Shown here piece by piece: positions 1,425 through 10,216 of a stretch of 64,000 nt of DNA. The stretch comes from Peribacillus sp. ACCC06369. GTDB lineage: Bacteria > Bacillota > Bacilli > Bacillales > DSM-1321. Every line of letters starts with the position of its first letter. The stretch's first letter is position 1. A program made the translations under genes and the position numbers. The DNA lies in the NCBI RefSeq assembly GCF_030348945.1, contig NZ_JAUCEN010000002.1:2728001-2792000 (forward strand), given 5' to 3'. The notes below the pieces were generated by a model. The model had not been told where the DNA came from. It did no database searches and worked only from the letters and a program-made list of their open reading frames with translations.

Positions 1425-1471
1425 AACTGCACCCCAATTGTTAGACACATCTAACAATTGGAGGTGCAGTT
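1425..1471 (+). promoter_or_regulatory. Hairpin at IS left end that covers the orfA ribosome binding site
   Basis: AACTGCACC (1425-1433) pairs with GGTGCAGTT (1463-1471), and CAATTGTTAG pairs with CTAACAATTG inside it, around a six-base loop. The GGAGG that serves orfA lies in the 3' arm. A transcript entering from outside would fold and hide the site, while one starting inside would not. Such guards are known in other IS elements; here the function is inferred from the fold. Confidence 0.6.
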
Positions 1472-1476
1472 TCTTT

Positions 1477-1983
1477 ATGGCCAAATTTACAGCACAACAG
1501 AAAATACAAGCCGTACAGAGATATATTGAAGGTACAGAGGGACAGGCAAGCATAGCTAAATCTATTGGTGTTACTTCTGGAGTATTAATCACTTGGATTC
1601 GACAGTACCAATATCATGGAGAGAGTGCATTTGTAAAACGCTATACAACTTATACGGTAGAAGATAAACTGAAAGTACTTGAATATATGAACTTACAGGG
1701 GACGTCTCTCCGTGAAACTGCTGCGGTTTTCAATATTCCGGCACCTTCTACCCTATTACTTTGGCAAAAACAATGTGAAGCGGAAGGAGTAGACGCCCTC
1801 AAACCAAAGAAAAAGGGGCGTCCATCCATGAAAAAAGAAACGAAGAAACCACTAGCAGAAGGATCATTAGAGGCATTAAAGGCTGAAAATGAGCGTTTGC
1901 GTGCGGAGAATGCCTATTTAAAAAAGTTGAAAGCCTTAGTTCAGGAAAGAGAAGTGTCAGAACGCAAGAAAAAGCGAAAGTAG
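1477..1983 (+). CDS. IS3-family transposase OrfA (helix-turn-helix)
   Basis: DNA-binding subunit of the IS transposase, about 168 residues from the ATG at 1477, preceded by GGAGG. It has two helix-turn-helix blocks ([17 protein letters not shown] near the start and a second near residues 65-100) and a C-terminal coiled coil ([18 protein letters not shown]). It overlaps orfB, which lies in the -1 frame; an A-rich run just before the orfA stop (around 1965-1978) is a plausible slippage site for an OrfAB fusion. An upstream in-frame ATG at 1438 lies within the terminal repeat and is less likely. Confidence 0.9.
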
Positions 1984-2822
1984 TGTACGAACTAAGGGGA
2001 GAATTTAATTTAAAGCTACTTCTATCTGTCGCGAATATCGCACGGAGCACCTATTATTATTGGAGAAACGCCTTCGGGCGTCAGGATAAATACGTGGAGA
2101 TAAAGTCTGTCATCGAAGAGATATTTCAGACGAATAGAGGGAGATATGGATATCGACGTATCACCTTAGAATTACATAATCGGGGCATTGTGATTAACCA
2201 TAAAACGGTGCTTCGATTGATGAATGAGCTGGGGTTAAAGTGTCTGGTACGTTTGAAGAAATACCGTTCGTACAAAGGCAAGGTTGGAAAGATTGCACCC
2301 AATATTCTCGAGCGTAATTTTAAAGCAACAAAGCCAAATGAAAAATGGGTCACTGATGTGACGGAATTTCATCTAAAAGGTGAGAAGTTGTACTTATCGC
2401 CCATTCTTGATTTATTTAATGGAGAAATCATCGCCTACAATATCGAATCACGTCCTATTTACCCTTTAGTCTCCAAGATGTTAGACCAAGCCATAATGCG
2501 ATTGGAATCGGAAGATTCACCCATCCTTCATTCGGATCAAGGCTGGCACTACCAAATGAAACCCTATTCACATACCTTGAAGACACATGCGATTACACAA
2601 AGCATGTCTCGGAAGGGAAATTGTCTCGACAACGCTGTCATGGAAAACTTCTTTGGCTTATTAAAATCCGAATTGCTTTATTTACAGAAGTTCGACAGCA
2701 TGAAGCATTTCAAACAAGAATTAGAAGATTATATTTATTATTACAATCACCAACGAATTAAGGTGAAATTAAAAGGCATGAGCCCGGTTGATTACCGGGT
2801 TCATGCCCTCAAGGTTGCCTAA
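1983..2822 (+). CDS. IS3-family transposase OrfB (DDE integrase domain)
   Basis: Catalytic subunit carrying an rve/DDE domain. Seen: an N-terminal HTH_21 block ([12 protein letters not shown]), the first Asp in WVTDVTEF, the second in [10 protein letters not shown] and the Glu in [14 protein letters not shown]; the C-terminus has [19 protein letters not shown], typical of the family. The nominal GTG start at 1983 overlaps the orfA stop, so it is probably made mainly as a -1 frameshift product. The three catalytic residues are present and the frame is uninterrupted. Confidence 0.93.
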
Positions 2823-4682: not shown

Positions 4683-5564
4683 TCAGTTCCCCATCATACG
4701 TTCATGATTCTGATTTGCTTGTACAAGCAAATGGGATGATGGCATTAGAATTTGATGCTCATGTAAAGCAGTCATCATTTCAAACCTCACACTTCTTGCT
4801 GTTTCAAAGTAATGTTCAGGTTTAACAAGTCCGACTAAGCATAGTTCATATCCAACATATTTGAGATTCGGATTTAAATCCGTAATGCCAATGTATCTAA
4901 AATCCTCTTCAGGTGTACCATCCTCTAGCCTTAGCAGGGTTTCACCATACTTCTCATTGCAGATAATGCATATATCTTCCAACAGCCGTTTTACCTTTTC
5001 AGGATTTTCTTGGTAACTTACTGTAATGCGCTCAATGATTCGCATTCTCCCTTTATTAAAATTTTGAATCGTCCTGATTTCACTGTGTGGGATTGTCAGC
5101 AATTTTCCTGACCATTCCCTGATCTGCATGAACCGGATACCGATTTCCTCTACGGTTCCGGAACTTGTCCCATTGAAAGTCACAAAATTCCCTACTCGGA
5201 ATTCATTATCTGACAGCCTTACAAATCCCAATAAGATATCTTTAAGCATTTGCTGCGCCGCAAATCCGATAACGACCCCTACAATCCCAGCTCCAGCTAA
5301 AATTCCTTTTAGGTCTATGAACTGTCCAATCAGATAAATGAGGAAAATCGCAGCAATGCCGTACCTAAGTGTAGAACGAGTAACCCCCTGTATCGTTTTT
5401 TCCACTTCTTCATCAAAAAAGGCGGACCTCTTAAAGAACCATTCGACCATTTTATTCAAAATATAATAAACCGCCATTAACAGTAATGCCAATATAAAAA
5501 GCCTCATTAATAAGAATTCTTCCAGGATATCCAAAGCACGCTCAGTTATATTCAAGAAGTCCAT
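4683..5564 (-). CDS. MscS-family small-conductance mechanosensitive channel
   Basis: Membrane channel of the MscS family, 293 residues, close to the YkuT size class. Seen: hydrophobic helices near residues 18-40, 68-86 and 88-112; the pore-lining TM3 (GIVGVVIGFAAQQMLKDILLGF region) and the beta-domain start DNEFRVGNFV; a soluble alpha/beta C-terminus ends the protein. ATG at 5564 with GGTGG just upstream. It follows the Spo0M-like gene by 20 bases and both lie downstream of a manganese-type riboswitch, so it is probably made when Mn is high. Family knowledge: opens on hypo-osmotic stress. A Mn-linked role is inference. Confidence 0.9.
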   Translation of the reverse strand: MDFLNITERALDILEEFLLMRLFILALLLMAVYYILNKMVEWFFKRSAFFDEEVEKTIQGVTRSTLRYGIAAIFLIYLIGQFIDLKGILAGAGIVGVVIGFAAQQMLKDILLGFVRLSDNEFRVGNFVTFNGTSSGTVEEIGIRFMQIREWSGKLLTIPHSEIRTIQNFNKGRMRIIERITVSYQENPEKVKRLLEDICIICNEKYGETLLRLEDGTPEEDFRYIGITDLNPNLKYVGYELCLVGLVKPEHYFETARSVRFEMMTALHEHQILMPSSHLLVQANQNHERMMGN

Positions 5565-5584
5565 GTTCCACCTACATTTCCACT

Positions 5585-5977
5585 TTATTCAGAATCGATT
5601 AAAAGCCAGTCGTCATCTTTGCCTATTATCCCTTTATCAAGTATGAGTCTCGTTTTAAGGCGATAGGAAACCCCTCGCTTATAAGGCTCCTCCAACGTAG
5701 GCAGACAAAAGTTAAAAGGAATTTCATTACTTTCCCCAGACTTAATCACACTTGAAGATAAAATGGTGCTCGTCTTAAGGGTATTTTCCATCCCTGTCGA
5801 ATGAGTATCCATTATTAAATCACATTCAATTCTCCTTATTCTTTGCTCTTGTGTACCACCTTTAATCAAGAAATACCCATTTATACATTCACCAGATTTA
5901 TACGTATTTTTCGAAAGGATTAAATCAATTTGTGCCGAACCTATCCCTAAAAGTAACAAAGATTTTCTAAGTATCAA
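5585..5977 (-). CDS. Short Spo0M-like (arrestin-fold) protein
   Basis: About 130 residues resembling the N-terminal half of the sporulation-control protein Spo0M (B. subtilis Spo0M is about twice as long). The match is clear at LGIGSAQIDLILSKNTY and GYFLIKGGTQEQRIRRIE near the start, then the PF-CLP segment. I prefer the TTG at 5977, because TGGAG lies seven bases upstream; a GTG at 5986 overlaps that site. First gene after the manganese-type riboswitch, 20 bases ahead of mscS. Cytoplasmic; function unknown. The missing second lobe may be a family trait or a truncation; the stop is clean and the operon spacing normal, so I favour the former. Confidence 0.7.
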   Translation of the reverse strand: MILRKSLLLLGIGSAQIDLILSKNTYKSGECINGYFLIKGGTQEQRIRRIECDLIMDTHSTGMENTLKTSTILSSSVIKSGESNEIPFNFCLPTLEEPYKRGVSYRLKTRLILDKGIIGKDDDWLLIDSE

Positions 5978-6055
5978 AGAACACACTCCATTTATATTTA
6001 TTTGTTTCTATTATCAACCCAAAAGTTCATACATTTCCTAAGTATGCATCACTAC

Positions 6056-6087
6056 AAAAAAACCTTTACACATTTTGGTAAAGGTTT
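6056..6087 (-). terminator. Riboswitch expression-platform terminator
   Basis: Minus strand AAACCTTTAC, eight-base loop, GTAAAGGTTT, then seven T. The 5' arm can instead pair with GGGTAAAGGT (complement of 6103-6112), giving an antiterminator, so the two folds exclude each other. Confidence 0.85.
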
Positions 6088-6101
6088 ACTAAAATAAAAT
6101 A

Positions 6102-6209
6102 GACCTTTACCCATAGGTAAGGTCTGGCTAACAACAATATGCTGCCAACAACACCGAGAGCTATGAACTCCGTAATGACGATATTGTTGTAAAAGCTACT
6201 CCCCTTAGG
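6102..6209 (-). promoter_or_regulatory. yybP-ykoY (manganese) riboswitch
   Basis: Minus-strand leader. Seen: the hallmark GGGGAGTAGC near the 5' end (6195-6204), an ATCGTCA loop, a nested CGGAG/CTC stem, ACAACA/TGTTGT closing pairs, a GGC/GCC stem and the 3' closing strand GACCTTACC (6116-6124) that pairs with CCTAAGG. After the aptamer, GACCTTACC can pair with GGGTAAAGGTC (6102-6112), leaving the terminator arm free; when the aptamer holds its own 3' strand, GGGTAAAGGT is released to block the terminator. This is the logic of a transcriptional ON switch, as known for Mn2+ sensing by this family. The next genes are a Spo0M-like gene and mscS, not a recognised Mn exporter. Confidence 0.85.
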
Positions 6210-6233
6210 AGAATGTATTCAATTATATTGTTT

Positions 6234-6263
6234 ATCATACGGTAAGATTAGAAAGGTTGTCAA
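6234..6263 (-). promoter_or_regulatory. SigA-type promoter of the riboswitch operon
   Basis: TTGACA (6263-6258), 18-bp spacer, TATGAT (6239-6234), about 25 bases before the aptamer. The -35 lies in a dyad AAAGGTT-N4-AACCTTT (6252-6269), a possible operator. Confidence 0.8.
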
Positions 6264-6540
6264 ACCTTTATTTTTTTATTTTAGGGTTCTAACCAGGAAA
6301 TTTCAGTTCTTTGCACATATATTGATATAAATGAAAATATATTGAATTAACTTGTCCAGATATTGCAAAAGAATTAACTACTGGGTTTTAAATAGGCCAG
6401 TTAGTGGAATATGAAGTATGTAACAGCCGTTGTCCTTCCATATCACCATTTCATTTTACAACTGGATGAACGCTCCTTTCAAAAAGAATAAAGTGAACAA
6501 TTTATGTATATTTAATGAAAACTAAAATTAAATTTAAAAA

Positions 6541-6593: not shown

Positions 6594-6652
6594 AATTGTA
6601 ATATTAATTAAACTTTCGTTACATAAGATATTAGGGATTGGGGAGATTAAGT

Positions 6653-7186
6653 ATGAAAAAATTTTCAGGTATACTATTATCCATTATCATTCTATTTTTC
6701 ACATTGAGTGCTCAAGTTACCGCACAAACCACATCACAGAATTTATCAAACGTAAATGCATTAAAGATAGCCGATAATGCCAGCAAACATTTTTGGAATG
6801 CATTACATGGGTACACTAATCGTTCATGTTCACAAAAAACATTCAATTATAAAGGGACAGAGTATTCATACCTTTGCCAAGAATTCAATACAAAAGCTAA
6901 ATTGACTAACTACTTAGCAGAGACATTTACCAATAATGCAGTTGAAAAAGGCCTGAATAAATATAACTACATTACCCATAAAGGGAAATTAGCCCGTCCT
7001 ATCGGAGACGGCGACAGCATGTTGTTGTGGAAAAAAGCAAAAATTAAATTAGTCTATCAAAAATTAAACGTAAGATCCTACAATTTAACTGTACCTACAG
7101 TCGACGGTGAATCAGTAAAAAGAACTGTAACCTTTTATAAGTCCGGATCTAAGTGGAAAGTTAATCAGTTCGATGCAGTTCAATAA
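6653..7186 (+). CDS. iseA: IseA-family DL-endopeptidase inhibitor (secreted)
   Basis: Secreted inhibitor of cell-wall DL-endopeptidases (LytE/LytF/CwlO type), which limits autolysis. 177 residues from the ATG at 6653, preceded by GGGGAG. Seen: a Sec signal peptide (MKKFSGILLSIIILFF, cleavage after VTAQ), then the IseA pattern with HFWNALHGY, YKGTEYSYL, EFNTKAKL, KLARPIGDGDS and YQKLNVRSY. Two Cys residues near 59 and 73 of the precursor could pair. The WalR box in front supports the assignment: IseA is repressed by the WalKR system in B. subtilis. Monocistronic, with its own terminator. Confidence 0.85.
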   Translation: MKKFSGILLSIIILFFTLSAQVTAQTTSQNLSNVNALKIADNASKHFWNALHGYTNRSCSQKTFNYKGTEYSYLCQEFNTKAKLTNYLAETFTNNAVEKGLNKYNYITHKGKLARPIGDGDSMLLWKKAKIKLVYQKLNVRSYNLTVPTVDGESVKRTVTFYKSGSKWKVNQFDAVQ

Positions 7187-8885: not shown

Positions 8886-9060
8886 CTATGTTCCGATTAT
8901 TGTACCGAAAACGATTACAAGTCCAATGCTTGTCATCAGTCTGCAAAAACCGCCGTTAATTTTCTCCACAATCTGATTTAGAGGCATCCCAGGGCAAAAC
9001 CCACAAATAAAGTGCCTAGAAGTAACGATAAGAACGGATGAAGCTTACATTTGGTTGTCG
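8886..9060 (-). pseudogene. Gluconate/glycerate permease (GntP-type) N-terminal remnant
   Basis: In two frames the minus strand encodes LHPFLSLLLLGTLFVGFALG-like and GMPLNQIVEKINGGF then MTSIGLVIVFGTIIGT, the start of a GntP-family permease (LG-PL-VEKI-GG-G--GSIGLVI pattern). A frameshift separates the parts and the protein ends after about 55 residues at 8886. It follows the glycerate kinase remnant, a normal partner for a glycerate permease. The rest of the permease is gone. Confidence 0.6.
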
Positions 9061-10216
9061 CCAGAACACGCAATAACCAAGACTATTCGCTGCCAAAAAG
9101 GTCCGCATTACTTGTTCAGCTGAAAATTCCAAAAATTCAGCTCCTCTTTCCATAGCTTCCTTTAAAGGTATTGGAGCTTTCACCAGACTATGAACACTTG
9201 TTATTCCATGATCATATAAAGCTTCAATACCAGTTCCGATTGATCCAGCCAAAACGAATACGGGAATACCATGCTTTTTCGCTTCTTGTGCAACTCCCAT
9301 CGGTGTTTTTTCTAAAGCTGTTAGGTAATCGATTAGGTCCTCACCCGTAAAGACACAATCAGCATCGTATAGTTTTTCACCCAGTTTCGTATATTCCATA
9401 ACAATATCTACGCCCCTTTTTGTTTCCGCATTGAAAAAGGGTTGAAAGGCACTACCGATTCCACATGCAGCACCAGCTTTATCATGCAAGTGAATGCCTG
9501 TCTTGACTTCCACTAAATCAGCCCATGATGTTAAAGCCTTATCTTGCATCTCAACCATGGCAGGAGTCGCCCCTTTTTGGGGATCCGAATACACTTGATG
9601 CCCCTTCCGGCCCGACTAACGGATTTTGAACATCCGAGGCAATCAAAAACTCGGAATCTGCTATTCTTGGATTAAAATCCTCCGTATTTATTTCTGATAT
9701 GCGCGACAATTCGGCTCCACCGAATCCCAGCGGATTACCAACTGCATCAAATGCCCTCATTCCCAAAGCCTGGTGCATTCCAACGCCGGCGTCGTTGGTA
9801 GCGCTACCCCCCAATTGCTAAAATGAACTTTCGACAGCCATCATCCAATGCTTTTTGAATGAGCTCTCCTGTACCGTATGTAGTAGTGATCAATGGGTTC
9901 AACTCTTCTGGATTGACTAGGCATAAACCGGATGCACTAGCCATTTCAATCACACATGTTTCTTGATCCCCCAAGATTCCATATGCTGCCGGTATGTCTT
10001 CAAATAAAGGTCCTTTAACGGTCACTTCAACTTTTCGCCCGTTTGTAACTGTCACAAGGCTATCCATCGTACCTTCACCACCATCCGCTACAGGAACCAA
10101 TTCTGTCTTGGCATCCGGCATAGCCTTCCTCACCCCTCGCTCGATTGCTTTCGAAAGCCTCTAATGCATGCTGACAAACTTCCCTTATAAGAATCTGGTG
10201 CAATGACAATTTTCAT
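9040..10216 (-). pseudogene. Glycerate kinase (GarK/GlxK family), frameshifted
   Basis: The start MKIVIAPDSYKGSLSA (ATG at 10216) is clear, but the frame is then lost and AIERGVRKAMPDAKTELVP continues in another. Further shifts occur near 9806 (between LAIGG and GGSATNDAG) and near 9590 (between GASSVFG and QKGATPAMVEM). All parts of a type-2 glycerate kinase are present, including VADGGEGTMDSL and FTGEDLID. At the 3' end, after EQVMRTFLAA, the frame runs into permease DNA, which suggests a deletion fusing the two genes. The product would be inactive. Confidence 0.88.

Follow-up and report, generated by a model that had tools for sequence, protein, structure and literature searches.

The yybP-ykoY, or Mn2+, riboswitch (RF00080) combines an L1 sequence, GGGGAGUAGC, and an L3 sequence, CGUCA, with a switch helix called P1.1, and turns genes on by antitermination. 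Passages from two papers on the class (PMC6754395, PMC11087558) describe Mn2+ as stabilizing P1.1. In B. subtilis, TerC genes (MeeY/YkoY) are under riboswitches of this class. Here, an operon is described from Peribacillus sp. ACCC06369 that shares these features of the class and has no TerC. Its targets are instead a gene for a short arrestin-fold protein and a gene for a mechanosensitive channel, mscS.

Both proteins have described relatives. Spo0M of B. subtilis (PDB 5cl2) has an N-domain whose sequence and fold are common to the arrestin found here. The latter, however, at ~130 amino acids, corresponds to just one of Spo0M's two domains, and the switch was found upstream of none of 20 loci encoding long Spo0M (0/20, searched with the model R1 described below). 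The MscS channels (TtMscS, PDB 3udc, and YfkC) resemble the second protein in their beta-domain and overall; what sets the latter apart is its riboswitch. A more distant likeness is to ARRD-6, an arrestin-fold chain in the mechanotransduction channel complex of TMC-1 (7usy; Foldseek E 2.6e-5). This likeness is at the level of the fold and is one among several beta-sandwich matches, and MscS and TMC are, of course, unrelated.

The DNA that was analysed, called the window below, is a stretch of 64,000 nucleotides. Within it, the operon runs on the minus strand in the order promoter, aptamer, two hairpins, Spo0M-like reading frame, mscS, and terminator-like hairpin:

6263-6234 (-), SigA-type promoter, TTGACA-18-TATGAT, 11 of 12 letters, the best match of the region
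6109-6218 (-), aptamer of the yybP-ykoY (Mn2+) type, a three-way form without P2
6207-6203 and 6122-6118 (-), the two strands of P1.1
6204-6195 (-), aptamer motif GGGGAGTAGC
6180-6175 (-), aptamer motif CGTCAT
6128-6118 (-), aptamer motif GCCAGACCTTA
6125-6101 (-), anti-P1.1 hairpin, then a U-rich stretch (fold; alignment of 22)
6077..6111 (-), antiterminator, 6111-6103 with 6085-6077, nine perfect Watson-Crick pairs
6087-6056 (-), intrinsic terminator (terminator search and fold)
5977-5585 (-), short single-domain Spo0M-like (arrestin-fold) reading frame, TTG start, N-half of PF07070
5564-4683 (-), mscS, 293 amino acids, PF00924, PDB 3udc
4575-4553 (-), terminator-like hairpin 3' of mscS (terminator search)

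An initial annotation, made from the sequence alone, had placed a SigA promoter and a yybP-ykoY aptamer here, and both assignments stand. At each of the 22 orthologous sites that were read, a similar promoter lies 5' of the aptamer. The L1 core, the L3 core, and the 3' GACCUU strand of the class are all present in the aptamer. A covariance model, R1, was trained on 24 other RF00080-type aptamers, a set that holds none of the arrestin-linked loci found in 89 loci whose sequence 3' of an RF00080 match was read. This model matches 6109-6218 (-) with 72.3 bits (E 1.3e-16 in 301,541 bases searched), and the folding energy has a z of -4.13.

The Rfam model is less generous. At its gathering score, it finds zero yybP-ykoY elements in the window; the RF00080 check that the annotation had proposed for the aptamer does give a match when 5950-6500 is searched alone (19.8 bits, E 0.002), but one that misses the 45-bit cut-off. 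Even the best of the orthologous sites (34.9 bits, in genome G035) stays below it. This cut-off is hard on the clade, since RF00080 matches at E <= 0.001 occur in 56 of 61 relatives, and matches that exceed the cut-off in 14 of the 61. A gathering score is a threshold of curation, not a defining trait of the class. By sequence and predicted structure, then, 6109-6218 (-) is a genuine yybP-ykoY riboswitch. Other Rfam rows on 5950-6500 (STnc460, PyrR, and others) were judged to be chance.

The expression platform is built from competing pairings. The 3' strand of P1.1 has two alternative partners, being taken up either by P1.1 or by the hairpin at 6125-6101. The 3' arm of this hairpin, GGUAAAGGU, is complementary to ACCUUUACC, the 5' arm of the terminator, and the resulting antiterminator is paired in 20 of 20 distinct aligned rows. 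Formation of P1.1 thus frees the antiterminator, which makes an ON switch if Mn2+ stabilizes P1.1. With Mn2+ bound, P1.1 would hold the GACCUUA strand, and GGUAAAGGU would be freed to pair with ACCUUUACC; this pairing would block the terminator, and both genes would be transcribed. When Mn2+ is lacking, the hairpin that opposes P1.1 would form, and so would the terminator. Folded in isolation and free of ligand, the OFF form has -47.8 kcal/mol and the ON form -39.0, the former being better by 8.8.

Across 20 distinct sequences, 96.0% of the cells of a hand-written version of this structure are paired; none of 500 shuffles reaches this figure, and the best slid version has 47.4%. Covariation within the mscS set is modest: three pairs have changed on both sides, which 111 of 500 shuffles equal. 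The mutually exclusive terminator and antiterminator pairings that the annotation had drawn are all there (the hairpin at 6125-6101, the terminator at 6087-6056, and the nine-pair antiterminator). Its wider claim, a Mn2+-type transcriptional riboswitch with ON logic ahead of a Spo0M-like/mscS operon, is borne out by these pairings together with R1, and the arrangement is conserved in 22 of the genus's 24 orthologues; the pairings are seen in the sequence, and the response to Mn2+ is what the riboswitch class would predict. No match to a separate promoter is listed on the minus strand at 6055-5978, where the annotation had thought that one might undermine its reading.

Tandem hairpins with a separate, later antiterminator (at least seven perfect pairs) occur in every one of the 17 mscS-linked platforms, compared with 3 of 31 in a set that is mostly TerC-linked; an antiterminator of this kind is found in 30 of 60 platforms from the order-wide arrestin survey described below, among the matches listed. 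These counts come from regular expressions, with identical platforms merged. The genome itself also carries a TerC-linked switch, which, unlike that in the window, is predicted to fold into just one terminator, formed with the P1.1 strand itself.

The first gene had been recognized as Spo0M-like, correctly except for its start, here moved to the TTG at 5977. Its product scores 59.5 bits against PF07070 (cut-off 23), aligning with positions 2-134 of the 213 in the profile and falling short of the two-domain length. This, in turn, marks it as a single-domain relative, not Spo0M itself. PDB 5cl2 matches it both by sequence and by fold. In its predicted model (pLDDT 84.2, with residues 1-10 low), Foldseek places Spo0M 5cl2 first (E 1.5e-10), followed by beta-arrestin, ARRDC3, VPS26, and TXNIP. 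Further down come the ARRD-6 chain noted above, from the TMC-1 complex of C. elegans, and VPS26 with DMT1 (5f0m, 1.0e-4), along with unrelated beta-sandwiches. Such matches to a model are best taken as leads at the level of the fold.

By sequence, the second gene encodes an MscS-family channel, whose conductance is predicted. The beta-domain profile PF00924 gives 55.4 bits (cut-off 20.2); the NCBIfam equivalog NF047601 gives 118.9, short of its cut-off of 500, as such models name other subgroups. From gene order and length, we take YfkC to be its relative in the B. subtilis group. Gain-of-function YfkC is described, in the passages seen of PMC7857571, as exporting glutamate in B. subtilis lacking c-di-AMP. 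A search for relatives of this MscS in viral contigs found none. The 20-base spacing between the two genes and the operon's own terminator are as first annotated: the gap between the reading frames is 20 nt, and the terminator-like hairpin follows mscS.

Among 36 Peribacillus genomes, 24 have an mscS orthologue (at least 68% identity). The aptamer core lies upstream in 22 of these 24, R1 recovering the same 22, and in these the promoter, the antitermination platform, the Spo0M-like gene, and mscS recur together. The two exceptions are G010, where a stretch of N precedes mscS, and G012, where neither switch nor arrestin is found at mscS. A ribosome-binding-like stretch precedes mscS, and the gap between the two genes is 20-22 nt in 18 of 22 (19 if locus L003 starts at ATG). 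Wide gaps occur in G009 and G029 (423 nt in L022 and 297 nt in L024), and a search of these two gaps for terminator-like sites found none. In the L035 gap (the same as L024), two weak matches to a promoter lie on the coding strand ahead of mscS; the stretch has five such sites, with 2.3 expected. At two loci a gene is interrupted, the arrestin frame being broken in L007 (G024) and mscS holding an internal stop in L021 (G011); each may be sequencing error or decay.

What the switch controls elsewhere was read in 61 relatives. Here, RF00080 matches sum to 126 (17 mscS-linked, 90 in the 89 loci read, 19 unread), from a listing with strict filters, which lose weak sites. The 89 loci start with a TerC-like reading frame in 53 cases, and 12 have a short Spo0M-like frame without MscS. 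In several relatives, the order is riboswitch, FbpB-like small reading frame, arrestin, DUF1232, TerC, and CNNM (families via Pfam). In four loci (L171, L182, L185, L175), a DUF1232 membrane protein comes immediately after a Mn-type riboswitch, with TerC next in three. Looked at from the side of the arrestin, the same genomes contain 46 short copies (E <= 1.4e-16). Of these, 40 have the switch upstream; mscS accompanies 22 of the 40 and is absent from the other 18. The six lacking the switch are second copies in G006 and G031, and those of G019, G042, G046, and G048. In G006 (L215) and G031 (L221), the switchless short arrestin sits directly 3' of a long Spo0M gene. The survey of RF00080 matches for a downstream mscS that had been suggested is thus positive within the genus orthologues and negative beyond, as no MscS was found beside RF00080 outside this orthologue group in the 61 genomes (lists compared by eye).

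A survey of the order drew 249 genomes and gave 90 short-arrestin loci among the matches listed; it omitted one locus cut by a contig end and loci already examined, and has eight loci in common with the survey of 61 relatives. Among these matches, R1 finds a same-strand switch upstream of the arrestin in 60 of the 90 loci and not in the other 30, and the 60 span 21 family labels. With both surveys pooled, 92 of 128 distinct short-arrestin loci are switch-linked, again among the matches listed. Downstream of the arrestin in those 60 loci, among the same matches, there is TerC in 19, DUF1232 in nine, and CNNM in five (as the next gene in three), with any of the three in 26. The remaining 34 have neither these nor MscS within the 1.3-1.5 kb read, and MscS follows none of the 60 over that distance.

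Two side observations belong here. Between riboswitch and arrestin, 31 of the 60 loci (among the matches listed; for example L223, L227, L186, L195) have a small basic FbpB-like reading frame (PF13040). FbpB is known from iron sparing, and this arrangement may tie the control of Mn and Fe together. In L247 and L250 (G056, G187), two riboswitches stand ~510 nt apart; a DUF1232 frame lies in the space between, and the second riboswitch is followed by the arrestin.

Looked at from the side of the channel, R1 was run on 80 mscS loci taken from named records and finds a switch upstream of 13. Each of these is a member of the orthologue set, from species already in the genus count; their record labels include one Paenibacillus sp. 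and three Bacillus sp. The other 67 are that of Peribacillus loiseleuriae, with an upstream stretch of N, and 66 from other genera, where no Mn-type riboswitch was found (one of the 66 has no upstream sequence). The recurrent partner of the switch is, therefore, the short single-domain arrestin-fold gene, the N-half of Spo0M, and not mscS.

A tree was built from 143 arrestins, 8 of 151 having been left out as identical or short, over few columns. The 19 mscS-linked rows form one side of a branch with support 99/95, present in 99% of bootstrap trees. They are one clade. This branch sits among switch-linked rows, in a tree that has many open forks. G012 has a switch and arrestin located away from mscS (L206). 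G010 and G029 have a switch followed by DUF1232 and TerC (L171, L182), and G029 additionally has switch, arrestin, and mscS (L034). The simplest history would start from an older switch-arrestin operon that carried DUF1232 and TerC in some lineages; its arrestin part would have come together with mscS a single time.

Taken with the R1 match, the conserved exclusive pairings, the arrestin surveys, the fold, and the glutamate export by YfkC, this history leads to a reading to which we give about an even chance: a Mn-responsive antitermination switch whose recurrent target is an arrestin adaptor, and to which MscS was coupled once as a valve for turgor or anions. Excess Mn would induce the arrestin-fold protein, which would most likely serve membrane proteins required under such excess, as their cytoplasmic adaptor or auxiliary subunit. 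The arrestin gene occurs behind this switch in many families of the order, either on its own or accompanied by genes for DUF1232, TerC, or CNNM membrane proteins. In Peribacillus, switch and arrestin would have been joined once to MscS, probably a tension-gated valve that relieves turgor, or an imbalance of glutamate or another anion, in Mn overload. C-di-AMP phosphodiesterases are Mn-dependent, a possible link between Mn and turgor. As 34 of the 60 loci, among the matches listed, have no TerC, DUF1232, CNNM, or MscS in the stretch read, the adaptor idea rests on a minority. The 30 of 90 short arrestins lacking an upstream match, the better energy of the isolated OFF fold, the modest covariation, and the wide gaps in G009 and G029 also weigh against the reading. 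Its most specific form, an adaptor or auxiliary subunit for TerC, CNNM, DUF1232, and the Peribacillus MscS that works as ARRD-6 does with TMC-1, so that manganese would switch on a bacterial complex of arrestin and channel, we hold to be unlikely.

Alternatively, the arrestin might be the sole meaningful target, with mscS a passenger that settled downstream in Peribacillus. The recurrence of the arrestin, the single clade of its mscS-linked members, the mscS orthologues that other genera keep without a switch, and the wide gaps in two species all suit this idea. The pair has, however, been kept in 22 of 24 orthologues, mostly with its tight spacing, and mscS has its own ribosome-binding-like stretch. 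A passenger is thus rather unlikely, if a serious contender.

A much slimmer chance goes to arrestin-linked riboswitches being a variant that senses another divalent ion. Variants that explain genes ill-fitting Mn2+ are expected in the passages seen of a review (PMC7266159). Here, however, the L1 and L3 core letters, including the adenosine of CGUCA, are identical to those of the training aptamers, and TerC also lies behind 19 of the 60 arrestin-linked switches, among the matches listed.

Slimmer still, on the evidence, is the chance that, with help from its arrestin-fold partner, MscS itself lets Mn2+ out under overload, as the initial annotation had supposed. At about -120 mV, the Nernst relation puts the equilibrium of a divalent cation ~10^4-fold inward. 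A passive pore therefore favours entry, and high external Mn would let Mn2+ in; on these grounds alone, exit via MscS is unlikely. Between 15 riboswitch-linked MscS orthologues and 20 unlinked ones (the latter including the Peribacillus loiseleuriae protein, whose upstream reads N), a single column separates the sets, residue 176 (90% each), with no shift in charge. One such residue gives no hint of changed selectivity, and the candidate of a Mn-selective MscS was dropped. The idea does draw on mscS being part of this operon in 22 of the 24 orthologues, and on class targets that, in the passages seen of two sources (PMC7266159, PMC10550928), are mostly Mn exporters or metalation proteins. Nor does MscS appear to be the purpose of the switch, which precedes arrestins without mscS across the order (60 of 90, among the matches listed), while the arrestins next to mscS all fall in a single clade. 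Of the two halves of the original idea, the arrestin-fold partner was the better guess.

Within the bounds of the searches made, a known riboswitch class here gains new gene associations, of which the link to arrestin is the larger finding; the founding Mn-riboswitch papers, which lay outside those searches, may mention arrestin or MscS targets earlier. A literature search for DUF1232 with riboswitches found nothing, and one for yybP-ykoY with mechanosensitive returned, in the passages covered, unrelated text. Targets named in the passages seen are transporters or metalation proteins, from which an arrestin-fold target differs. Linked to the switch at 92 of 128 loci among the matches listed, the short arrestin would place bacterial arrestins in a physiological context, and as a recurrent partner it points to an unexplored side of bacterial manganese control. 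The Peribacillus operon, for its part, would tie manganese genetically to a valve for turgor. Sensitivity to hypo-osmotic shock is described, in the passages seen of PMC3136493, for a Xanthomonas mutant in a Mn exporter.

The neighbourhood of the operon offers a few minor observations. At 6638-7186 (+), transcribed away from it, is a gene for an IseA-type inhibitor of DL-endopeptidases (PF16800, E 1.9e-53). At 9016-10133 (-), three consecutive overlapping reading frames seem to be pieces of one broken gene, presumably a glycerate-kinase-like one. Finally, ~1.9 kb from the end of mscS, two reading frames at 1438-2822 (+) resemble what we take to be an IS3-type transposase pair.
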